Shown piece by piece: positions 724-26,470 of a stretch of 35,541 nt of DNA. Numbering within the stretch: the stretch's first letter is position 1; every line of letters begins with the position of its first letter. Position numbers and translations under genes: made by a program. The notes under the pieces were generated by a model. That model did no database searches, had not been told where the DNA came from, and saw only the letters and a program-made list of their open reading frames with translations. The stretch covers positions 1-35,541 of the forward strand of contig JANXNS010000139.1 in NCBI GenBank assembly GCA_025353965.1, in the 5' to 3' direction. This DNA is from Aquihabitans sp. Lineage in GTDB: Bacteria; Actinomycetota; Acidimicrobiia; Acidimicrobiales; Iamiaceae.

Positions 724-1587
724 ATGTCAAGAGCGCACGGGTTGCATCACAACCCGGTCGGTCGTCTCACGGGCGACCATCCGGGGATCGTGAAGTTCGG
801 TCGCGCTGGCTGGTTCGCGAAGGGTGTCGTCTACCTCGTGGCAGGCGTGCTGGCTCTGATGATCGCGGCCAAGGCGTCGGCTTGGTCCAGCGCGGTCACC
901 ACGTCGGCTAAGGAGGCGAGTCCGACCGGGGCATTGAAGACGATCGCTCAGATGACGGGCGGCGCGCTGCTGATGTGGGCCTTGGCGGGGGGCATGCTGC
1001 TCTACGCCTCGTGGCGCGTCGTGTCTGCGCTCCTGCCCGGCGCCAATACCCCCAAGGCGTGGCTCACGCGCATCGGTTACGTGGTCAGCGCAGTGATCTA
1101 CATCACGTTCGCGGTGACGGCGATCTCACTTGCCCGCAGCGCACAGGCCAATGCGAATGGCAACGCCACGGTTTCCTCGCTGTCCGACGGTTTCATGGCG
1201 CATACCGGCGGCCGACTCGTCATCGGCGTCGTTGGAGCAATCACCATCGCAGTCGGGCTGTACCGGCTCAGCAAAGGAGTCCGTGGCGATGTCACCGACG
1301 AGCTCAACCTGTCAACTCTCTCGCAGCGGCGACGCCATTGGACCGAGCGCCTCGGTGCGGTCGGCGAGATCGGGCGCGGCATCGGCATCGGTCTGATCGG
1401 CTTCTTCCTGCTCCGTGCGGCCGCCACCTACGACCTCGCGCAGGCCACCGGTCTGGACGGTGCTCTTCGCCGCTTGGCCACCGAGACCTGGGGCCTCGTG
1501 GTCGTCGTCGTCGTCGGGGTTGGTTTCGCCGCCTATGGGCTGTTCTGCCTGGCGACGTTCACCCATCGCCAACTGCAGGCCCCGTGA
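724..1587 (+). CDS. DUF1206 family membrane protein
   Basis: The 287-residue integral membrane protein has the threefold repeat of the DUF1206 family. Each unit has an aromatic-Gly entry (VKFGRAGWFAKGVVYLVAG near residue 20; TRIGYVVSAVIYITFA near 115; GEIGRGIGIGLIGFF near 215), a charged loop and a second helix, about six membrane segments in all. The family's biochemical role is unknown. GGAGAGGAG at 709-717 gives a good ribosome binding site for ATG 724. Its stop overlaps the GTG of the following PAP2 phosphatase by 4 bases (GTGA, 1584-1587), so translation of the two is probably coupled and the protein belongs to the lipid-phosphatase operon. Confidence 0.85.
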   Translation: MSRAHGLHHNPVGRLTGDHPGIVKFGRAGWFAKGVVYLVAGVLALMIAAKASAWSSAVTTSAKEASPTGALKTIAQMTGGALLMWALAGGMLLYASWRVVSALLPGANTPKAWLTRIGYVVSAVIYITFAVTAISLARSAQANANGNATVSSLSDGFMAHTGGRLVIGVVGAITIAVGLYRLSKGVRGDVTDELNLSTLSQRRRHWTERLGAVGEIGRGIGIGLIGFFLLRAAATYDLAQATGLDGALRRLATETWGLVVVVVVGVGFAAYGLFCLATFTHRQLQAP

Positions 1588-2342
1588 CCACCCCCAGCGG
1601 CGGCCTTCGGGCGACATGGCCCGTGCACCGGCGCCAGAGCTTGCAACTTCTGTGTGGATGGGTCGCGTTGACGATCGTATGGATCGGCCTCGGCGCACTC
1701 GTCACTGGCCCGCTCGCCGGTGGGGCGATTGGGCGCGCCGATGAGCGCGTGGCGCATTGGATGGTCGCGCAGCGGACCCCGACGTGGAACCATGCCACTG
1801 TGTGGGGGTCGCTCATGGCAGAGACGACTACGAAGGTCGTGGTGACGGCGCTGCTCGCTCTCGTGTTCCTGAGGTTGTGGCGACGCTGGTTCGAGCCGGT
1901 CTTCCTCGTCGTCTCGCTCGTCATCGAGGCGGCTGCGTTCGTCGTGGTCACCACGGTCGTCGGGCGGTCGCGACCCGACGTACCCCGGCTGGATGGTTCA
2001 CCTGTGGGTTCCAGCTTTCCGAGCGGGCACACCGCCGCCGCCGCCGCCTATACGGCGATCGCCGTGGTGGTGTTCTGGCACACCCGGAAGCGTTGGGCGC
2101 GGGTCGTGGTTGTGTTCCTGACGGCGCTCGTCCCCGTCATTGTCGGTCTGGCGCGTCTGTACCGCGGCATGCACTTCCTCTCCGACACCATTGCCGGTGC
2201 GCTCTTGGGGGCGGCTGCAGTGGCCCTCACCGCGGGAGTGCTGACACGGTCGCCCGAGGGCACCCAAATCATCAATCCGAGCGCTGACGGCCCGACCGCG
2301 GATGCCCGGGAAGTGGCCGAGCGCGATCGGATTGTGGCGTGA
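1584..2342 (+). CDS. PAP2 family phosphatase (first copy)
   Basis: The 252-residue membrane protein has the PAP2 acid phosphatase layout used on phosphatidic acid, undecaprenyl pyrophosphate or similar lipid phosphates. Visible motifs are GRSRPD (R130-P131), SSFPSGHTA (H149) and RLYRGMHFLSD (H197, D201). The Lys that normally opens the first motif (K-x6-R-P) is Thr123, which is unusual and may affect substrate or rate. Start GTG 1584 overlaps the DUF1206 stop; the frame is open back to 975, but that part lies inside the DUF1206 gene and is a shadow. About five to six membrane segments; the tail after residue 225 is hydrophilic. A second PAP2 gene follows 28 bases later. Confidence 0.88.
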   Translation: MTTPSGGLRATWPVHRRQSLQLLCGWVALTIVWIGLGALVTGPLAGGAIGRADERVAHWMVAQRTPTWNHATVWGSLMAETTTKVVVTALLALVFLRLWRRWFEPVFLVVSLVIEAAAFVVVTTVVGRSRPDVPRLDGSPVGSSFPSGHTAAAAAYTAIAVVVFWHTRKRWARVVVVFLTALVPVIVGLARLYRGMHFLSDTIAGALLGAAAVALTAGVLTRSPEGTQIINPSADGPTADAREVAERDRIVA

Positions 2343-2370
2343 TGCAGCGCTGCTCAGGTGGAGGTAAACG

Positions 2371-3279
2371 ATGCCGATCCTGATCGCTCTCGCCGTGGCG
2401 ACGGTCGTGGTGACCGTTGTCCTCACATTCGTGGCGCGTCGCGGGCGTCGCACCGACCCTGCCGACGTGCGCGCCGGTGCAGACGGTCTCGTCGAACAGG
2501 CGCACCGTCACCCGATGTTGCGACGATTTATCCGCGATCGTCGCGACACCACCAAGGCCACGGGCTGGCTGTTGACGGTTGCGCTCCTCGCGATCGCCGG
2601 TCTCACCCTCGCTGTCGGACTGGTACTCGAGATGGTTCAGACCCACGGAGGGTTCGCCCGGTGGGACGACTCCGCCGCGCGTTGGGGTGCGGCACACACC
2701 ACCGGTCCGAGCGAGTCGGTCCTACGGGTCATCACCCAACTGGGCAGCACACCGGTCGTCATTACGCTCTGCATCGGCGTATCGATCGTCGGATACCGTC
2801 GCCTTTCCACTCAGGCGGTGCCCGCCTTTCTGGCCACCGTCGTCGTGAGCCAACTCGTCATCACCAACCTCATCAAGGCGGCCGTGGGACGTGAGCGCCC
2901 CAACATCGCCCAGCTCGTTACGGCATCAGGCTCCTCGTTCCCCTCCGGCCACACCGCTGCCAGCGCCGCCGCGTACGCAGCAATCGCTCTCGTCGTGGGC
3001 AGCCGCCGCAGCCGTCGCACCAAGGCAGCCCTGGCCGGCGCGGCGGGCGGGATCACCGTCGCAGTCGCGACGAGTCGAGTCCTGCTCGGGGCTCATTGGC
3101 TCACCGATGTAATCGCAGGCGCAGCCGTCGGATGGGCATGCTTCGCGCTGTGCTCGATCGCCTACGGCGGGCGGCTCTTGCACTTCGGCGCACCCGTCGA
3201 ACAGGCCAGCGCCGCCCTCGCCATCGAACCGCCCCCTTCGAACACCCGTGGTTCCCTGACCTCGTGGAGTCACACATGA
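2371..3279 (+). CDS. PAP2 family phosphatase (second copy)
   Basis: The 302-residue membrane phosphatase has an N-terminal anchor (residues 2-22), a cytoplasmic-type linker (about 25-62) and a canonical PAP2 core. The motifs are K169-AAVGRE-R176-P177, SSFPSGHTA (H194) and SRVLLGAHWLTD (R236, H242, D246). Unlike the neighbouring copy all three motifs are intact, so this one is the better candidate for active lipid-phosphate hydrolysis, for example phosphatidate to diacylglycerol. AGGTGGAGG (2355-2363) precedes ATG 2371. The stop overlaps the start of the lipid kinase (ATGA, 3276-3279), which places the two opposing activities in one transcript. The two PAP2 proteins differ outside the motifs and are not a recent duplication. 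Confidence 0.9.
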   Translation: MPILIALAVATVVVTVVLTFVARRGRRTDPADVRAGADGLVEQAHRHPMLRRFIRDRRDTTKATGWLLTVALLAIAGLTLAVGLVLEMVQTHGGFARWDDSAARWGAAHTTGPSESVLRVITQLGSTPVVITLCIGVSIVGYRRLSTQAVPAFLATVVVSQLVITNLIKAAVGRERPNIAQLVTASGSSFPSGHTAASAAAYAAIALVVGSRRSRRTKAALAGAAGGITVAVATSRVLLGAHWLTDVIAGAAVGWACFALCSIAYGGRLLHFGAPVEQASAALAIEPPPSNTRGSLTSWSHT

Positions 3280-9731: not shown

Positions 9732-12700
9732 ATGTTCAGGTCTCGGTGGCGCGAGATGCTCGTGGTCGCGTTTCTCGTGCCCGTGCTGACGAGCGCGAAC
9801 GGGGCTCCATCTCAGGCGGCTGCCTCCGGCAGTGGTAGCTGGGGACCTGTCCTCGATTGGGGTCTGCAGGGTAAGCACATGTCGGTGTTGCCCTCGGGCA
9901 AGGTCATCGTGTGGTCCAACGGTGCGAGCGCGCGTGTCTGGGATCCCTCGGCCGGTACGAACGGCGCCTTCACCGCGAACACACCAGCGGTATTCGGCGA
10001 CCTTCACTGCGCTGGTAACGCCCAGCTCGCCGATGGCCGGGTGGTCGTCCTGGGCGGCCAGAACGGCGGGACCCACATAGGCACGTCCGTGACCGCGCTG
10101 TTCGATTCGACCACGGAGACCTGGTCGCAGGGGGCGTCGATGGCCTATTCACGCTGGTATCCGAGCGTCACCGCCCTGGCTGATGGGCGCGTTCTCGCCA
10201 CGTCCGGTGATGACGCCAACGGCAACCGGATTACGACGCCAGAGGTCTATAACCCCAGTACTGACTCCTGGATCCAGCTGACCGGAGCGGTACGAAACCA
10301 GGGGCTCTACCCGCAGATGTACGTCCTACCCAACGGCAAGGTCTACGAAGCCGCTCCCGGGGCGGCGACCGCCATTCTGGACCCATCCGGGACCGGCTCT
10401 TGGACGCCCGGGCCCACCAATGCCTGGGGCACGAACGGCTACTCAGAGTCCTCGGTGATGTACGAGCCCGGCAAGATCCTTCGGGTCGGCGGCGGGGACC
10501 CAGCGATCGCGCGGACCGCCATCATCGACATGAACCAGCCCAATCCCCAGTGGCAGGAGGTAAGCCCGATGGCATTCGCACGGCGTCGCCTGAGCCTCGT
10601 GGTTCTGGCCGATGGCGAGCTGCTGGCGGTCGGCGGCGCGTCGAACTCCGACGACGAAGCCACCGCGCCCCTGCCGGCTGAGATCTGGAACCCGGCGACG
10701 CAGACCTGGCGCGCGGTGGCGGCAATGAGCGAGGCACGCATGTACCACTCGTCCGCCGCGCTGCTCCCTGATGGTCGCATCCTGAGCGCAGGAGGCGAGG
10801 CGACTGGCCGTCTGCACGCCCAGGTCTTTTCACCGCCGTACCTCTCGGCTGGCCCGCGTCCCACGATCACCAACGCACCGTCCACCGCCGCGTTCGGGTC
10901 GTCGATCCAGATCAGCACCCCAGACGCCGCCAGCATCACGTCGGTCGCGCTCATCCGGCTCAACTCCGCTACCCATGCCTGGGACCAGAACCAACGCTAC
11001 GTGTCGTTGTCGTTCACCACGTCGGGCGGCACGCTCACGGCTAGCGCGCCGACGAACGGCAACTACGCACCCCCCGGCGTCTACCAACTGATCGTAAAGA
11101 CCGCGGCCGGTGTCCCGTCGGTGGCGAAGATGATCAAGATCGACTCCGCAGGCGCACTGATGCCGGGCACCGTCACCGGCGTCGTGACCGATGAGACTAG
11201 GACTGCGATCAGCGGGGCAACGGTTGCTACCGCCGGGGCCTCTGCCACCACCGACACCACGGGTGCCTACCGGCTCTCTGGGCTCAGCGGCGGGGAGCAT
11301 GAACTCGTTGCTTCGGCCTCGGGCAAAGCCCAGGTGAGCCGCTCAGTCATCGTCACCGCCGGCGGCACGGTCACCCAGTCGTTTCAGCTTTCGCCTCCCG
11401 GTCGGGTGACCGGCACCATCACCGAGCAGGGGACCGGGGCGGCCATAGCTGGCGCCAGCGTCACCTACCCCGGTGGGGTGGCGACGGCTGACAGCTCCGG
11501 CGCCTACGCCATCGCCGCCCTGCCCGCCGGGCCCTTGACCCTGAACGTCACCGCGCTCGGCCACGCTGGCCAGCAGCGCGACATCACTGTCGTGTCCGGG
11601 GTCTCGGCCACCTCGAACTTCGCCCTCGTGAAAGCCGCTACCTACATCACCGGCGGGCTCTCAGATCAGGTGACTGGCGAGCCGATCATCGGGGCGCCGG
11701 TCTCGGTGGATACCGGGGCGAGCACGGTCACGGACTCGCTGGGTCGTTACCGGTTTTACGTTGCCCCGGGGATGTACGACGTCACTGCTTCTGCCCCCGG
11801 CTACGTCTCGGCCACCAGCCATGCCATCGTCACGGACGGTACCTACACGCTGCTCGACTTCCCGATGGAATCCGTTGCCGTGGTCGGCACCCCGCTCAAA
11901 CGCATCACGTTCGAGGACAGCAGCCTGACCCATCCCACCACCGGAGCTGACAAGGTCTCCGGCTCGGTCACGCTGGACACGGCGGCACCGTTGTCTGGAA
12001 CGGCGTCGGCCAAGTTGACCGCGGCCACCTCCGCCTACCTCGAGGAGACGGTGCCAGCCACCGATGACCTCTCGGTCAAAGCGCTGATCAGACCGGCTTC
12101 CTTGCCGAGCGGCGACGCCCGGATCCTGATGGTCCAAAACGGGAGTACGACGGTCGGCGCGCTCCAGCTTCGGGCGAGCGGCCGGCTCCGGCTCCGCCAG
12201 GGCTCAACCACGATCGGGACGGAGTCTGCCCCGCTCACACCCGGCACGGCCTACCGAATCGGCCTGCGCCAGGTCCGAGGGACGGGCGGAAACGCGATAC
12301 TCGAGGCCTACCTCGCGCCTGCGGGATTGCCCTTCGGGACGCCGTTCGCCAAGACCACCACGGGGACTTGGACCGGCGCTGCTAGCCGGTTGCGCGTTGG
12401 CGTCACCAGTGGCTCCGCCGTGAGCGCGGGCTTCGACGACATCTTCGTGGACTCCGCAGCCACTGGCCCCGGACCCACCACCACCACCACCACGACGACC
12501 ACCGTGCCATCGGGCATGACCATGACGTACGTGCCGATCGCGGACGCGCAGGTCAAGTCCACGAGTCCCGGACAGAACTACGGCACGCTGACTACGCTCA
12601 GGCTCCGGGCCGGGACGGTGTCGTCGCCCGATGAATACCGGAGCTATCTGCGGTTCTCGGTGCCCGACGTGATGGGCCCCGTCACCGTGGCCAAGCTGCG

Positions 12701-12986
12701 GCTCTTCGTGAGCGACGGGAGTACGTCAGGCGGAGCTGTGTTCTCGACCGCTGGGGGTTGGACGGAGGCTGGCATCACCTCAGCCAACGCGCCCGGAGCG
12801 GTCGGCTCCGCTGTGTCGGTCCTCGGCGCGGCCCCGGCTGGGGTCTGGGTCGACTACGACGTGACGGCCGCGGTCCAGAGCGGGACGTTCAACTTCCTCC
12901 TCACCACGTCCTCGAGCGACTCGCTCATCGTCAGCAGCCGAGAAGGCGCCCAGCCCCCACAACTCGTCATCACCCGCGTCGGTTAG
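9732..12986 (+). CDS. Secreted galactose/glyoxal oxidase-like copper-radical oxidase with accessory domains
   Basis: From ATG 9732 the product has 1,084 residues and a signal peptide (MFRSRWREM, hydrophobic LVVAFLVPVLTS, then Ala-rich cleavage region). The frame is open back to 9627, but that would bury the signal. A kelch beta-propeller (about 36-370) and a galactose oxidase-type C-terminal domain (about 375-470) follow. Counterparts of the copper-radical site are visible: C93 (GDLHCAG) and Y143 (SRWYPS) for the Cys-Tyr cofactor, Y338-H339 (RMYHSS), and H415 (SATHAW). Then come three carboxypeptidase-regulatory-like beta domains (about 478-713), a LamG-like domain (about 720-910), a nine-Thr linker (916-924) and a DNRLRE-type domain to the end. 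The expected reaction is alcohol or aldehyde oxidation with H2O2 release outside the cell. Confidence 0.88.
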   Translation: MFRSRWREMLVVAFLVPVLTSANGAPSQAAASGSGSWGPVLDWGLQGKHMSVLPSGKVIVWSNGASARVWDPSAGTNGAFTANTPAVFGDLHCAGNAQLADGRVVVLGGQNGGTHIGTSVTALFDSTTETWSQGASMAYSRWYPSVTALADGRVLATSGDDANGNRITTPEVYNPSTDSWIQLTGAVRNQGLYPQMYVLPNGKVYEAAPGAATAILDPSGTGSWTPGPTNAWGTNGYSESSVMYEPGKILRVGGGDPAIARTAIIDMNQPNPQWQEVSPMAFARRRLSLVVLADGELLAVGGASNSDDEATAPLPAEIWNPATQTWRAVAAMSEARMYHSSAALLPDGRILSAGGEATGRLHAQVFSPPYLSAGPRPTITNAPSTAAFGSSIQISTPDAASITSVALIRLNSATHAWDQNQRYVSLSFTTSGGTLTASAPTNGNYAPPGVYQLIVKTAAGVPSVAKMIKIDSAGALMPGTVTGVVTDETRTAISGATVATAGASATTDTTGAYRLSGLSGGEHELVASASGKAQVSRSVIVTAGGTVTQSFQLSPPGRVTGTITEQGTGAAIAGASVTYPGGVATADSSGAYAIAALPAGPLTLNVTALGHAGQQRDITVVSGVSATSNFALVKAATYITGGLSDQVTGEPIIGAPVSVDTGASTVTDSLGRYRFYVAPGMYDVTASAPGYVSATSHAIVTDGTYTLLDFPMESVAVVGTPLKRITFEDSSLTHPTTGADKVSGSVTLDTAAPLSGTASAKLTAATSAYLEETVPATDDLSVKALIRPASLPSGDARILMVQNGSTTVGALQLRASGRLRLRQGSTTIGTESAPLTPGTAYRIGLRQVRGTGGNAILEAYLAPAGLPFGTPFAKTTTGTWTGAASRLRVGVTSGSAVSAGFDDIFVDSAATGPGPTTTTTTTTTVPSGMTMTYVPIADAQVKSTSPGQNYGTLTTLRLRAGTVSSPDEYRSYLRFSVPDVMGPVTVAKLRLFVSDGSTSGGAVFSTAGGWTEAGITSANAPGAVGSAVSVLGAAPAGVWVDYDVTAAVQSGTFNFLLTTSSSDSLIVSSREGAQPPQLVITRVG

Positions 12987-21795: not shown

Positions 21796-22371
21796 TCAGT
21801 TTCCGGAGTCTAGAAGGCCTTGCATGGTGGAAATTTCTGCCTTCTGCGCCTTGATGATGTCTCCTGCCAGAGCCTTGGCATCTGCACTTTTACCTTTGGC
21901 CTGCTCGGTCTGGGCCATGGTGATCGCCCCGGTGTGGTGCTGAATCATCATCTCCAGGAACATATTGTCGAAGGTTGCGCCGGTGGCCTTCTCTAGGTCG
22001 CCCATCTCGCCTGCCGACATCATTCCGGAGCCCTTGCTTGCGTCGCCCATGTGGTTCATCCCGCTCTCGGCGGTGATCTTCTTGCCCCAGGCCTTGAGCC
22101 AGCCGGTCATGGTCTTGATTTCCGGGTCCTGGGCGGCCTTGATCTGCTTGGCGAGCCCGACGACCTCGGCTGACTTGGCGTGCATGAGGGCGAGGTCGGC
22201 CATCTCCACGGCCTGCTGGTGATGCGGGATCATGTCTTGACTAAAGGTGACGTCGGCATCGTTGAAGTTGCTCGCCCTTTTTATGGTCGAGCCTGACCCG
22301 GCCGAATCTGATCCACCGCAAGCGGCGAGCAGGAGGGCCGAGGCAAACAGAACGGTCAGCAAACGCTTCAC
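21796..22371 (-). CDS. DUF305 domain lipoprotein
   Basis: The 191-residue secreted lipoprotein has a signal peptide with lipobox LLAAC (C18), then two ferritin-like DUF305 helical halves. Their signatures are TFSQDMIPHHQQAVEMA (H50-H51) and FLEMMIQHHTGAI. The central part is Met/His-rich (GMNHMGDASKGSGMM), and members are often linked to copper handling, which would suit the copper enzymes in this window. The start is GTG 22371, with AGGAG about 10 bases upstream. Inverted repeats at 22409-22449 lie in its promoter region. Confidence 0.85.
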   Translation of the reverse strand: MKRLLTVLFASALLLAACGGSDSAGSGSTIKRASNFNDADVTFSQDMIPHHQQAVEMADLALMHAKSAEVVGLAKQIKAAQDPEIKTMTGWLKAWGKKITAESGMNHMGDASKGSGMMSAGEMGDLEKATGATFDNMFLEMMIQHHTGAITMAQTEQAKGKSADAKALAGDIIKAQKAEISTMQGLLDSGN

Positions 22372-22481: not shown

Positions 22482-23699
22482 CTAGCCGGTTACGGCTACT
22501 CGGGTTATGGCTAGGAAGGTGCAGAGGTAGATGTCTCTGGCGAAGCCGGGGGCGGGGAAAAGGACGGACTGGACGCCGCCTTGGCTGTCGGCCCGGGCCA
22601 GTTCGGTGCCCGTGACGATGTCCAGGATCACCACGTCGGTGTGGTCGGCGGTCACGAGCTCGCCGGTACCGGTGTAAAGCAGGACGTGGCTGCCGTGGTC
22701 CTGGTCTCGGCGCCAGAGCACCGCCAGCGTGTCGAGGTCGAACCCCACCAGCACGCCGTTGCCGCTGTCGTAGCCGACCACGACACGACGGTCTTCATCG
22801 ACCACTGGGGGGTTGGCGACGAGCCCACCCGGGAGGCCGCAGATCTCGGTCAGGGTGACGGCGGAGGTGGCCAGGTCTACCCGCACAAGGTGGAGTGGAG
22901 CGGTGGAGATGCCGTTGCCGCGAAGGGTGCCGGTGTAGCCCTCACTGCCGTCGCCGTTGTCGAGGAACCAGGCGGCTCCGGCGGCGATGACGCAGTCCCA
23001 GCCGTAGGTCTGGCCCTCGATCGTTCGATACCGCGCCGTGAACGACGTGTCGAGCTCGAGCGAAACGGAGCCAGCGTCCCAGCGGACGCGGAGGAGGCTG
23101 GTATCGCCGACGACGTAGATGTCGTTGCCATCGGCAGAAAGGCGGGCGATGGATGGTTCGGGGAGGACGAGCCGGGCGACGATGGCCAGCGTCTCGGGGT
23201 CCAAGATCAGTAGCTCGCAGGGCTCGCGGTCGCCCGCCGCAATGACCAGCCCGGGCCGGGAACCGCCGAAGTCTTTGGTTGCGAGGTGGCCGCTAGGGAG
23301 CGTGACGAAGCTGTTGTAGGGGCGGTTGCGGGGGAGGGCGGTGGAGGCCAGCACCTGCAGGCCTGTGCTGAGCCGATGCGCATGGTTGCCGAATACGACG
23401 TGCAGTGAACCATTGGCGTGGACACCGATCCCGCCCGGCCAAACCGGTCCGGCCGGGAGCTCCACTGAGGTGGCGATCGGCTCCAAGGTTATGGGGTCGA
23501 TCTCCTCGACCAAGGCAATGGCGCCGTCTCCTGCGGTGTGGCGTAGGAGGAACACTTGGCCGGCATCGTTGGTGACGGCCATGGTGACCGCGGGCGCCGT
23601 GCGTGCCGTGACGGTGAGGGTGCTGCTGGGCCTGATGTCCAGGCCGCCGGGAACGAGTTGGGTGCGACGGGGCCCGCCGTCTTCGTGAGGCCAGCTCAC
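22482..23699 (-). CDS. Predicted beta-propeller protein linked to a sulfatase
   Basis: The 405-residue protein has repeated strand units ending in patterns such as VFGNHAHRL, LLILDPETLAIVARL, IYVVGDTSLLRV, VVVGYDSGNGVLVGFDLDTLAVLW and HTDVVILDIVTGTELA. They resemble the blades of a WD40, PQQ or NHL-type beta-propeller. No signal peptide or catalytic motif is visible. I start it at GTG 23699 (VSWPHEDGG), which overlaps the sulfatase stop by 4 bases; the frame is open to 24131, but that part is a shadow of the sulfatase. It is the third gene of a tight operon and may bind or monitor the sulfatase or its substrate. Function inferred only from context. Confidence 0.68.
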   Translation of the reverse strand: MSWPHEDGGPRRTQLVPGGLDIRPSSTLTVTARTAPAVTMAVTNDAGQVFLLRHTAGDGAIALVEEIDPITLEPIATSVELPAGPVWPGGIGVHANGSLHVVFGNHAHRLSTGLQVLASTALPRNRPYNSFVTLPSGHLATKDFGGSRPGLVIAAGDREPCELLILDPETLAIVARLVLPEPSIARLSADGNDIYVVGDTSLLRVRWDAGSVSLELDTSFTARYRTIEGQTYGWDCVIAAGAAWFLDNGDGSEGYTGTLRGNGISTAPLHLVRVDLATSAVTLTEICGLPGGLVANPPVVDEDRRVVVGYDSGNGVLVGFDLDTLAVLWRRDQDHGSHVLLYTGTGELVTADHTDVVILDIVTGTELARADSQGGVQSVLFPAPGFARDIYLCTFLAITRVAVTG

Positions 23700-25228
23700 A
23701 CCGGCGCCTCGAGCTGGAGGCGGGGGTTGCGGACCGAGGGCTGGCTGTCCCAGAGGTCCGCAAGGAGGTCCGACTGGATGGTGCTGCAGGCGGGATCGGC
23801 CCAGCGGTTGTTGCGTTGGAGCGGGTCCTCGGCCAGGTCGTAGAGCTCGCCTTCGGTTCCGTCGTGGACGGTCCCTGGTTTGTAAGCGGTGCAGACCCAG
23901 CCATCTCGGGTGATGGTTCGAACGTGAACGCCGACCCCCCAAAGCTCGCTGTCCCATTCGGTCAGGACCCGTTCGGGGCCGCCGTTGCTGTCCACGGGGA
24001 GGGCCCCGCCTTGCATCCAATCCGTGGCATCGAGGCCGGCGATGGCGCAGAAGGTTGGCGCCAGATCGACCAACCCGACCGGAGTGCTCACCACCGAAGG
24101 GCTTACCCCTGCGCTGGGCGCGGGCCGCCACACAAGCGGCAGCCGCATCAATCCGTCGACGTGGTACGGGCCCTTGAACATAAGGCCGAAATCCCCGCCG
24201 AGTTCGCCGTGATCGGTGGTGAACATGATGTCCACATCGTCAGCCCAGCCCCGCGCCGCGATGGCGTCCAAGACTCGGCCCAGGGCTTCGTCGATCAGCT
24301 CGCATTCCACCGCATTACGGGCGGTGATTTCGCGGACCTGATCGGCGGTCATGGTGGCGGGAACCCAGTTGGCGGGGGCCTCGTAGTTGGACACGAGGGA
24401 GCCGTCGTACCAGAGCTTCCAGTGGCGCGGTTTGGCATCGAGAATGGCCTCGCGCTCCGACGCCGACTCGGGGTAGTTCTCCGGTAGCGGCACCTCTCGC
24501 CAGTCGATGCGTCCGACCTCCGCTTCGGGCGGATCCCAGGGATGGTGGGGGTCGGGGAAGCTCATCCAGCAGAACCAATCGTCGTTGGCTTCGAGCGAAT
24601 CCAGCCAGGAGATCGTGCGGTCTGCCACCCAGTCAGTGTGATAGCAGTCCAGCGGGACGGCGTTGCTGTGGACTTGGGGTGCGCCCGTGTCTCCCCCGCC
24701 GGCGGAGCTGACCTGCAAACTGGCGTCTATCGCGGCATAGAACATGCCGATTAATTCGGGGTGGTTGGCCTGAATCCAGCGGGCGTAGTGGGTGGCGCCG
24801 GCTACGCCGTGCGTGGCAAATTCCAGATGCTCGAAACCGCGGTGCGTGCCACCGGGTGGGGTGGTGCCGGTGGAGGAGAGCGCGTTTTCCGCAAAGCGCA
24901 GGAATGGGTCTATGTATGGCTCGAAGTGGGCCTTGCCGACTAACGCGGTCCGGTAGCCGGCGTCGTGCAGGACCTCGGCCACCGATGGTGCATCCTCGGG
25001 CAGGGGGACCCCGTTCATCCACACGCCGTGGGTGCTTGGGTGCTGGCCGGTAATGATGGTGGACCGCGACGGCATGCAGACGACCGACTGCGGGATGGCT
25101 CGTTCGTAGCGGATCCCGGTGGCGGCCAGGCCGTCCACGACGGGGGTCCGGGCGATGGTTCCGCCGTTACAGCCAAGCGTGTCGTAGCGCTGCTGGTCGG
25201 TGGTGACCAGGAGGATTTTGCGACCCAT
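23696..25228 (-). CDS. Sulfatase (formylglycine-dependent arylsulfatase family)
   Basis: The 510-residue alkaline-phosphatase-fold sulfatase has metal ligand D11 (VTTDQQRYDTLG), the formylglycine site C51-M-P-S-R (VVCMPSRSTIITG), a HGVWMNG block, SFPDPHHPWDPP and TTDHGELGGDFGLMFKGPYH for the second metal/sulfate site. The catalytic Cys must be converted to formylglycine; no converting enzyme (FGE) lies in the window. No signal peptide is present, so the enzyme is cytosolic, as for choline-sulfatase-like members. It starts one base inside the stop of the SRPBCC gene (TGATG at 25228) and overlaps the propeller gene by 4 bases. Substrate not determinable. Confidence 0.9.
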   Translation of the reverse strand: MGRKILLVTTDQQRYDTLGCNGGTIARTPVVDGLAATGIRYERAIPQSVVCMPSRSTIITGQHPSTHGVWMNGVPLPEDAPSVAEVLHDAGYRTALVGKAHFEPYIDPFLRFAENALSSTGTTPPGGTHRGFEHLEFATHGVAGATHYARWIQANHPELIGMFYAAIDASLQVSSAGGGDTGAPQVHSNAVPLDCYHTDWVADRTISWLDSLEANDDWFCWMSFPDPHHPWDPPEAEVGRIDWREVPLPENYPESASEREAILDAKPRHWKLWYDGSLVSNYEAPANWVPATMTADQVREITARNAVECELIDEALGRVLDAIAARGWADDVDIMFTTDHGELGGDFGLMFKGPYHVDGLMRLPLVWRPAPSAGVSPSVVSTPVGLVDLAPTFCAIAGLDATDWMQGGALPVDSNGGPERVLTEWDSELWGVGVHVRTITRDGWVCTAYKPGTVHDGTEGELYDLAEDPLQRNNRWADPACSTIQSDLLADLWDSQPSVRNPRLQLEAPV

Positions 25229-25632
25229 CAGTGAGGTCCTTCCAGGGTGATGCGGAGGTGTTCGAGCGCGCTACCAGCGGCTCCGGCGATGACCAGGGCC
25301 ATGGTGGAGGGGATGGCGTCGGCGCTGTAGATCGCCAGGCAGGTGCCGTCTTCGAGGTCGATCACGTCGATGGTGGAGAGGTGTTCTTGAACGATGCCTC
25401 CCGTGATCCGATATTGGAACCGGCGTTGGATTGGATCATCGGTGACGATCTCTTCGGGGATGGGGATGCCGCTTCGGGTGGTGATCACCCGGGTCGTTCC
25501 GTCGACCGTGCAGGACTCGATCCCGATGAACCATTCGTGGACGCGGGCGGGGTCCCCGATGGCTTCCCACACGTCCTCGGCCGTGCGGGCAATGTGGACG
25601 TGACGCCTTACGGTTCCTCGTGGTGAGGTCAT
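25228..25632 (-). CDS. SRPBCC family (START-like) protein
   Basis: The 134-residue protein has the SRPBCC hydrophobic-pocket fold: opening HVHIARTAEDVWEAIGDP, the turn RVHEWFIGIESC, the central REITRRSG-like strand region and RRFQYRITGG, and a C-terminal helix (SALEHLRITLEG). Such proteins bind lipids, polyketides or other hydrophobic ligands. It is the first gene of an operon with the sulfatase and propeller genes (1-base and 4-base overlaps), which suggests a shared substrate such as a sulfated lipid or steroid; that is inference. It is divergent from the response regulator gene at 25733. Confidence 0.78.
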   Translation of the reverse strand: MTSPRGTVRRHVHIARTAEDVWEAIGDPARVHEWFIGIESCTVDGTTRVITTRSGIPIPEEIVTDDPIQRRFQYRITGGIVQEHLSTIDVIDLEDGTCLAIYSADAIPSTMALVIAGAAGSALEHLRITLEGPH

Positions 25633-25732: not shown

Positions 25733-26470
25733 GTGAGCCCTACCCACGGCATCAGCCTGCTCGTCGTCGAGGACGATCCTTCCATTGGTGATCCCTTGGT
25801 GGAGGCGCTCGTCCATGAGGGCTTCACCGTCCAGTGGGTGACCAGCGGGACCGAGGCGTTGTCGGCCCCTTTGGCCGATCTCATCCTGCTTGATCTTGGC
25901 CTCCCGGACCTTGATGGCCGGGAGGTCTGCCGCCGTCTACGCGATCGCAGCCCGGTACCGATCATCGTGTTGACGGCCCGCGACGATGAGTTGGAACGGG
26001 TGCTCCTGTTGGAATCGGGCGCCGACGACTACGTGCTCAAGCCATTTGGCTTTCGCGAGTTGGTGGCGCGGATCAGGGCCGTGCATCGGCGGTCTGTTGG
26101 AGGGGGAGGGCCCTCGGCAGAACCGGGTGGCGCGACCGCGCCCCCACCGCGGGATGAGGCTGGATTGCTGGTGGACGGGCGGAGCCGTCGGGTGCTGTTG
26201 GACGGTCGGGAACTTGACTTGGCGCCTAAGGAATTTGACCTGTTGGCCATGCTGGCCAGCGAGCCCGGTCGGGCTATTCCGCGTGCAGCCATCATCGAGA
26301 AGGTGTGGGACGAGAACTGGTGGGGTCCAACCAAGACCCTCGATGTTCATATCGCCGCGCTCCGCCGCAAGCTCGGTGAGCCTGGGTGGATCACGACCCT
26401 GAGAGGCGTTGGGTACCGCCTCGACCCGCCTCCTGGATGTGGTGCCCCGACCGTCATCGAGGCGTCGTGA
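25733..26470 (+). CDS. OmpR-family response regulator, pair 1
   Basis: The 245-residue protein has a receiver domain (about 8-120; acidic pocket E13-D14-D15, phospho-site D54 in LILLDLGLPD, K103 in YVLKPFGF). A flexible Gly/Pro linker and a winged-helix DNA-binding domain (about 140-235) follow. The DNA-binding part has KEFDLLAMLAS, then VWDENWWGPTKTLDVHIAA and RGVGYRLD. The WDENWWG-TKTLDVH block is nearly identical in the second regulator at 30727, so the two may recognise related sites. It overlaps or abuts the kinase at 26481, its likely partner. Target genes are probably the nearby redox genes, by inference. Confidence 0.92.
   Translation: MSPTHGISLLVVEDDPSIGDPLVEALVHEGFTVQWVTSGTEALSAPLADLILLDLGLPDLDGREVCRRLRDRSPVPIIVLTARDDELERVLLLESGADDYVLKPFGFRELVARIRAVHRRSVGGGGPSAEPGGATAPPPRDEAGLLVDGRSRRVLLDGRELDLAPKEFDLLAMLASEPGRAIPRAAIIEKVWDENWWGPTKTLDVHIAALRRKLGEPGWITTLRGVGYRLDPPPGCGAPTVIEAS

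Follow-up and report, generated by a model that had tools for sequence, protein, structure and literature searches.

A conserved SRPBCC–sulfatase gene pair with an optional propeller protein in Acidimicrobiales: a probable desulfation cassette, apparently not yet described as a unit

What holds three overlapping genes together, and what might they do as a group? The question is raised by a locus in a 35,541-nucleotide stretch of DNA from Aquihabitans sp. (contig JANXNS010000139.1 of assembly GCA_025353965.1; the whole stretch is called the window), where genes for an SRPBCC protein, a type I (S1) sulfatase and a beta-propeller protein follow one another on the minus strand. An earlier reading of the letters (the original prediction) saw in them an undescribed desulfation unit whose three products are fixed in stoichiometry. 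Comparison with related genomes shows that the usual unit is the SRPBCC–sulfatase pair and that the propeller is optional; the gene group probably removes sulfate from a hydrophobic molecule inside the cell. Genes of the relatives were called with a home-made codon scorer and checked with profile hidden Markov models, and the sums 13/67, 59/67, 12, 20, 48/79 and 48/219 used below were tallied by hand. The features of the locus are:

25228..25632, minus strand: SRPBCC (Polyketide_cyc2) protein, 134 amino acids, ATG start; PF10604 at 54.4 bits (cut-off 27.4); the usual partner of the sulfatase
25228..25228, minus strand: one-base stop/start overlap (TGATG) of the SRPBCC and sulfatase genes, read in the sequence
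23696..25228, minus strand: type I (S1) sulfatase, 510 amino acids, ATG start, with C51-M-P-S-R55; PF00884 at 113 bits (cut-off 25)
23696..23699, minus strand: four-base overlap (GTGA) of the sulfatase stop and the propeller GTG start, read in the sequence
22482..23699, minus strand: beta-propeller protein with a predicted BamB/YxaL/Rv3035-like fold (AlphaFold2 and VIA-align), 405 amino acids, GTG start

The one-base and four-base overlaps are thus as originally described. A mechanically called open reading frame (22482-24131) extends beyond the propeller start, the coupled GTG being at 23699. Overlaps of this kind are common in compact bacterial operons, so the evidence lies in their conservation: 47 of the 77 unique SRPBCC–sulfatase loci have a gap of -1, and among the 27 other loci with a listed propeller start (a few of which are one locus counted twice) 23 have that start at -4 and one has it at -1, the other three having it between +16 and +34. 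What the overlaps amount to is coupled translation. They do not imply stoichiometry, and the claim of a fixed stoichiometry is not supported, the propeller being absent, truncated or decayed beside most sulfatase copies in the order-wide sample. No signal peptide is visible by eye at any of the three N-termini.

The conservation of the pair was followed in two overlapping sets of loci. Pair loci, in which copies found through the sulfatase and through the propeller are mixed, number 89 in total, 86 of them unique and 85 with at least 350 bases upstream. In 77 of the 85 the gene next upstream of the sulfatase encodes SRPBCC; in the remaining eight the place is held by a haloalkane-dehalogenase-like hydrolase (five), a TetR-like gene (one) or no tested family (two). 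The order-wide sample is less dependent on how loci were found. Profile A2 finds the sulfatase family in 79 of the 298 order genomes (E <= 1e-120), and at E 1e-70 the family is present in 27 of the 396 phylum genomes; best-copy neighbourhoods were read for 67 of the 79 carriers, 60 of them new and seven found through the propeller. SRPBCC lies directly upstream in 59 of these 67 (52/60 and 7/7). Among the 12 carriers outside the 67, a sulfatase copy was read in G041, G598, G535 and G657 and gave no SRPBCC match. Even where identity to the window has fallen to about 61% in the sulfatase and 31% in SRPBCC the pair is retained, and the one-base junction is often kept. In deeper branches the haloalkane-dehalogenase-like hydrolase takes the place of SRPBCC. 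At L245-L249 a TetR-like gene, this hydrolase and the sulfatase replace the SRPBCC pair, apparently by exchange of one partner for another.

The sulfatase carries a complete type I active site. The C/S-x-P/A-x-R signature is present as CMPSR, with C51, P53 and R55 unchanged across the 88 aligned sequences, and D11, Q12, C51, N72, K99, H101, H228, D339, H340 and K352 are identical in all 88 aligned sulfatases. These residues correspond, in this order, to Asp14, Gln15, Cys54, Asn75, Lys102, His104, His201, Asp296, His297 and Lys309 of choline sulfatase; C51 was placed by the motif and the others through the alignment with SpAS1, the choline sulfatase positions coming from PMC5870055. The arylsulfatase Lys/His pair (K99, H101) and metal ligands (D11, D339, H340) align with SpAS1, and the top PDB profile matches are SpAS1 and SpAS2 of Silicibacter. 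The choline sulfatase of S. meliloti and the dimeric arylsulfatase SpAS1, both S1 members of the alkaline phosphatase superfamily, thus have the same fold and, wherever compared, the same active-site residues as the window enzyme; they differ from it in being only about 22% identical (Foldseek), and the window enzyme adjoins SRPBCC and, in some lineages, the propeller. Membership of a characterised equivalog is not indicated: the choline-sulfatase model TIGR03417 scores 124.9 bits against a curated cut-off of 433.45, and the models for choline sulfatase, arylsulfatase PRK13759 and PehA all remain far under their cut-offs. On the strength of the choline-sulfatase/SpAS1 active site, the window enzyme likely hydrolyses sulfate monoesters.

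A search of plasmids returned 13 records, all below 60% identity, with 29-33% among the ten matches listed. One of them, a Shinella protein 31.6% identical to the window sulfatase, sits in a sugar-transporter cluster. PMC11500405 describes a formylglycine-dependent acesulfame sulfatase in a catabolic cluster of Shinella, and a metallo-beta-lactamase (MBL)-type enzyme of Bosea that carries out the same reaction. The acesulfame sulfatase resembles the window case as a type I enzyme in a small catabolic cluster, but the 31.6%-identical protein lies on a plasmid other than that of the acesulfame cluster and is not equated with the acesulfame enzyme.

Is the propeller part of the unit? Further examples of the trio exist in related actinobacteria, and the original prediction does not fail on that count: of 67 unique propeller loci (those with at least 1 kb upstream, out of 74 loci above 200 bits, 69 of them unique), 28 have a window-type sulfatase directly upstream. 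As an indivisible unit the trio was nevertheless rejected, since a propeller match lies directly downstream of the sulfatase in only 13 of the 67 best copies (6/60 and 7/7, the seven having been found through the propeller yet belonging to the same order-wide sample). Four of the 13 are less than whole: a 28-bit remnant (L194, 6665-6763), a short N-terminal piece (L148, 7219-7467), a gene split by stops (L151, 7409-8682) and a partial match (L213). Such broken, truncated or remnant genes beside SRPBCC–sulfatase pairs suggest that the propeller is dispensable. Among unique sulfatase loci with at least 300 bases downstream it is present in 31 of 85, a figure inflated because many of these loci were found through the propeller itself. 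On the sulfatase tree (FastTree, midpoint-rooted) the copies accompanied by a propeller are dispersed through a single large section, a pattern that, read by eye, looks like an old gain followed by repeated loss.

Beyond the sulfatase loci, the propeller was found in 19 of 99 genomes when relatives were searched (this genome among them), in 18 of 396 phylum genomes (E 1e-10) and at 49 loci in the collection of named species, some from the same genomes and with titles mostly of Acidimicrobiia, Acidimicrobiales or Actinomycetota. Matches outside the class occur in G257, G397 and G412; one such neighbourhood (L158) was read. An S1 sulfatase is directly upstream of the propeller in 41 of the 67 unique loci, but it is not always the same one: besides the 28 of window type, 13 belong to a protein of 755 amino acids that is 21% identical to the window sulfatase. 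Its best solved relatives are the arylsulfatase structures 4cxk/1hdh, which we take to be the Pseudomonas enzyme PAS, and we call it PAS-like. As these 13 are drawn from a small number of closely related lineages, they are not 13 independent events; at L047 the large sulfatase and the propeller reading frame likewise overlap by four bases. The propeller may thus be regarded as a sulfatase-associated family whose role is perhaps wider than one enzyme.

For the propeller, every Pfam and NCBIfam match stays below its cut-off (PQQ_2, PF13360, scores 21.6 bits against 27.6), and phmmer at E 1 found no solved relative. The AlphaFold2 model is confident (pLDDT 96.4, pTM 0.94), and VIA-align places it nearest to mycobacterial Rv3035 (9p3g, from M. 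thermoresistible: Z 37.5, root mean square deviation 2.6, 346 residues aligned), followed by YxaL (36), tetrathionate hydrolase (32) and BamB (about 30), with designed eight-bladed propellers also among the matches. The predicted fold is thus of the BamB/YxaL/Rv3035 kind. Sequence identity to BamB, YxaL and Rv3035 is 12-17%, and the window protein differs further in having no visible signal peptide and in standing beside sulfatase genes. The residues that never vary are chiefly Gly, Trp, Pro, Asp and Asn. The idea that the protein might be an arylsulfotransferase-like propeller was dropped: no arylsulfotransferase is among the 50 VIA-align matches listed, an absence that excludes nothing, and no His is among the invariant positions listed.

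These observations are drawn together, with moderate confidence, in the following model: the locus is a cytosolic desulfation cassette with an SRPBCC and S1 sulfatase core, to which the propeller adds a scaffold in a subset of lineages. The helix-grip SRPBCC protein and the sulfatase would be translated as a coupled pair. The SRPBCC pocket would take up an amphipathic sulfate monoester by its hydrophobic part, or else the alcohol or phenol released from it, and hand its ligand to or from the sulfatase. There, the sulfate would be held between a divalent metal (D11, D339, H340) and N72, K99 and H101; residue 51, as formylglycine or possibly as unmodified cysteine, would attack the sulfur, and H228-K352 would act as general acid to expel the leaving group. 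The propeller, co-translated with the sulfatase in some lineages, would most likely be a docking or assembly scaffold, given that the same family also follows the very different PAS-like sulfatase. A report of Rv3035 in a FecB-AftB assembly (PMC12802301) makes such a role plausible, by analogy only. That the substrate is lipid-like or aromatic is a guess from the SRPBCC fold and from the hydrolases and dehydrogenases that neighbour the pair in relatives.

Several observations weigh against this model, and three other explanations draw on them. The top Foldseek match of the sulfatase model (moderate, pLDDT 76.5) is a promiscuous phosphonate monoester hydrolase, and phosphonate monoester hydrolases and sulfatases are mixed in the ranking; PehA and choline-sulfatase matches are moreover alike below the NCBIfam threshold. 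The enzyme might then act mainly on phosphonate monoesters or phosphodiesters, with a lipid phosphodiester or phosphonate, and not a sulfate ester, as the compound that the cassette handles. We consider this quite improbable. PMC5870055 credits the phosphonate monoester hydrolase RlPMH with only 9 of 11 active-site residues in common. K99 and H101, the counterparts of choline sulfatase Lys102 and His104, never vary in the 88 aligned sequences, and the best profile matches are the two Silicibacter arylsulfatases. The two positions at which RlPMH differs are presumably those matching Lys102 and His104. A different objection is that the SRPBCC partner is neither fixed nor characterised: the dehalogenase-like hydrolase replaces it at five of 85 sulfatase loci, the divergent sulfatase copies studied (including G133, G101 and G123 outside the class) gave no SRPBCC match, and among solved structures it has no characterised close homologue, the best being 2le1, an 'uncharacterized protein'.

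The propeller raises the remaining difficulties. At 26 of the 67 propeller loci no sulfatase is directly upstream (a TetR-like gene, an MBL or the dehalogenase-like hydrolase in six, no tested family in 20), which means that the propeller may act more broadly. Together with its absence or decay in many sulfatase-bearing lineages, this would fit an old operon of separately acting proteins, a general sulfatase scavenging sulfur next to an unrelated SRPBCC protein and propeller. Persistence of the pair over so wide a range of identity, often with the same one-base junction, and the association of the propeller with two very different S1 sulfatases make such an operon somewhat unlikely. Many propellers are enzymes, and this one could itself act on the desulfated product as a lactonase, hydrolase or dehydrogenase: its structural neighbours include tetrathionate hydrolase and quinoprotein dehydrogenase, and it also occurs away from the window-type sulfatase, beside short-chain dehydrogenase (SDR), P450, MBL, fatty-acid desaturase or Amidohydro_2 genes. 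Against this stand the want of any family match at cut-off and a set of invariant residues in which no obvious catalytic set is seen by eye; we think a catalytic propeller unlikely. The scaffold proposal is itself weakened in that the match to Rv3035 is of fold only (13% identity) and in that the M. marinum orthologue of Rv3035 has a predicted lipoprotein signal peptide (PMC12802301), unlike the window protein.

A further prediction concerns activation. The original prediction spoke of a cytosolic formylglycine sulfatase: the type I active site is complete, but formylglycine itself is indicated by the motif only, and no recognised maturase was found in the genome. This genome is 99.2% complete and has nine PF00884 matches, the eight strong ones (the window's and seven further full-length S1 sulfatases) all with the Cys-type signature, the ninth weak and partial. 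It gave no match to sulfatase_rSAM (anSME), and its sole PF03781 match is not a formylglycine-generating enzyme (FGE): by eye, this 790-amino-acid frame (G000 contig C166, L073 at about 909-3000) reads as an EgtB-EgtD fusion, whose domains we take to be those of ergothioneine synthesis, and it was rejected as FGE. Across the 79 carriers FGE is found in 12, anSME in 20, both in one and neither in 48, the last including this genome and the single-contig G003 and G489. FGE is no commoner in carriers (12/79) than in other sampled genomes (48/219) at the same threshold.

These counts depend on how the maturases were defined. FGE was scored as PF03781 at 236 bits or more, a threshold set by us, and anSME above its own cut-off; the FGE and sulfatase searches used an identical request over 298 genomes each, taken as the same 298. 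Every fetched match of at least 242 bits that was read has the FGE Cys pair, and EgtB-like matches were set apart by its absence. FGE was assigned on score alone in G533, G569, G591, G626, G642 and G657. Long frames with PF03781 matches of 226-233 bits (G050, G479, G582, G602) were counted as EgtB-like unread, and sub-cut-off anSME matches in G608 (truncated at a contig end) and G066 (218 bits) were left uncounted; if all six doubtful genomes are counted, 'neither' drops from 48 to 42. At the E-values used, built-in control genomes were matched in 2 of 14 for the FGE search and likewise for anSME.

The nucleophile cysteine never varies (88/88) although 48 of the 79 carriers show neither FGE nor anSME. 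Possible explanations are divergent maturases missed by both models, gaps in the assemblies, or catalysis by an unmodified cysteine. Multiple turnover by unmodified choline sulfatase has been published, and the activity behind FGE-independent formylglycine formation in E. coli is described as unidentified (both in PMC6189696). We tentatively suggest that window-type sulfatases are activated by a third formylglycine-generating system or work with a bare cysteine, a proposal that we think may well prove wrong. The SRPBCC protein and the propeller were considered as the missing maturation factor, and this is not supported, as neither tracks the absence of FGE and anSME: in G560, G519, G069, G090, G624 and G067 the sulfatase lacks both SRPBCC and propeller at its locus, and the genomes are also without FGE or anSME over thresholds. 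Many 'neither' genomes also lack the propeller.

The wider neighbourhood varies. In relatives the pair often adjoins a TetR-like gene (TetR_N at 21-22 bits, just below the cut-off of 24) and often also a divergent DinB_2-like gene (17 bits, cut-off 24.8); variable neighbours are DUF2855, an RNase-Z-like MBL (369 bits, cut-off 363), the haloalkane-dehalogenase-like hydrolase (468 bits, cut-off 265), SDR, DSBA-like and large sulfatase genes. The fullest cassette (TetR, MBL, dehalogenase-like hydrolase, SRPBCC, sulfatase, propeller) is found at L156 and L038, in the latter with DUF2855 before TetR. The recurring hydrolase and TetR-like neighbours argue for a pathway that degrades or detoxifies an amphipathic ester. 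A profile search of the window found none of these neighbour families. Here the trio adjoins a divergent response-regulator gene beginning at 25733, and a DUF305 gene (21796-22371) lies directly downstream on the same strand; a promoter and terminator scan found neither. Elsewhere in the window (9756-12986) a protein of 1076 amino acids combines kelch/galactose-oxidase-like, CarboxypepD_reg and CBM96 domains.

The combination of a sulfatase with SRPBCC, propeller, haloalkane dehalogenase or TetR context was not described in the titles and abstract openings of the open papers that the searches listed, which bears out the word 'undescribed' to that extent. PF10604 membership links the window protein to the SRPBCC/Polyketide_cyc2 ligand-binding proteins, and among the open papers listed there was no characterised SRPBCC partner of a sulfatase. 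The locus is thus apparently a conserved desulfation cassette, built of known families and undescribed as a unit. A conserved SRPBCC–sulfatase pair and a sulfatase-associated propeller family are hereby defined in a little-studied order of actinobacteria, and the propeller protein gains in the sulfatase a partner that can be tested. The most interesting loose end is how the sulfatase is activated in carriers that lack FGE and anSME: with this absence so frequent, carriers such as the single-contig G003 could allow FGE-independent formylglycine formation to be studied genetically.

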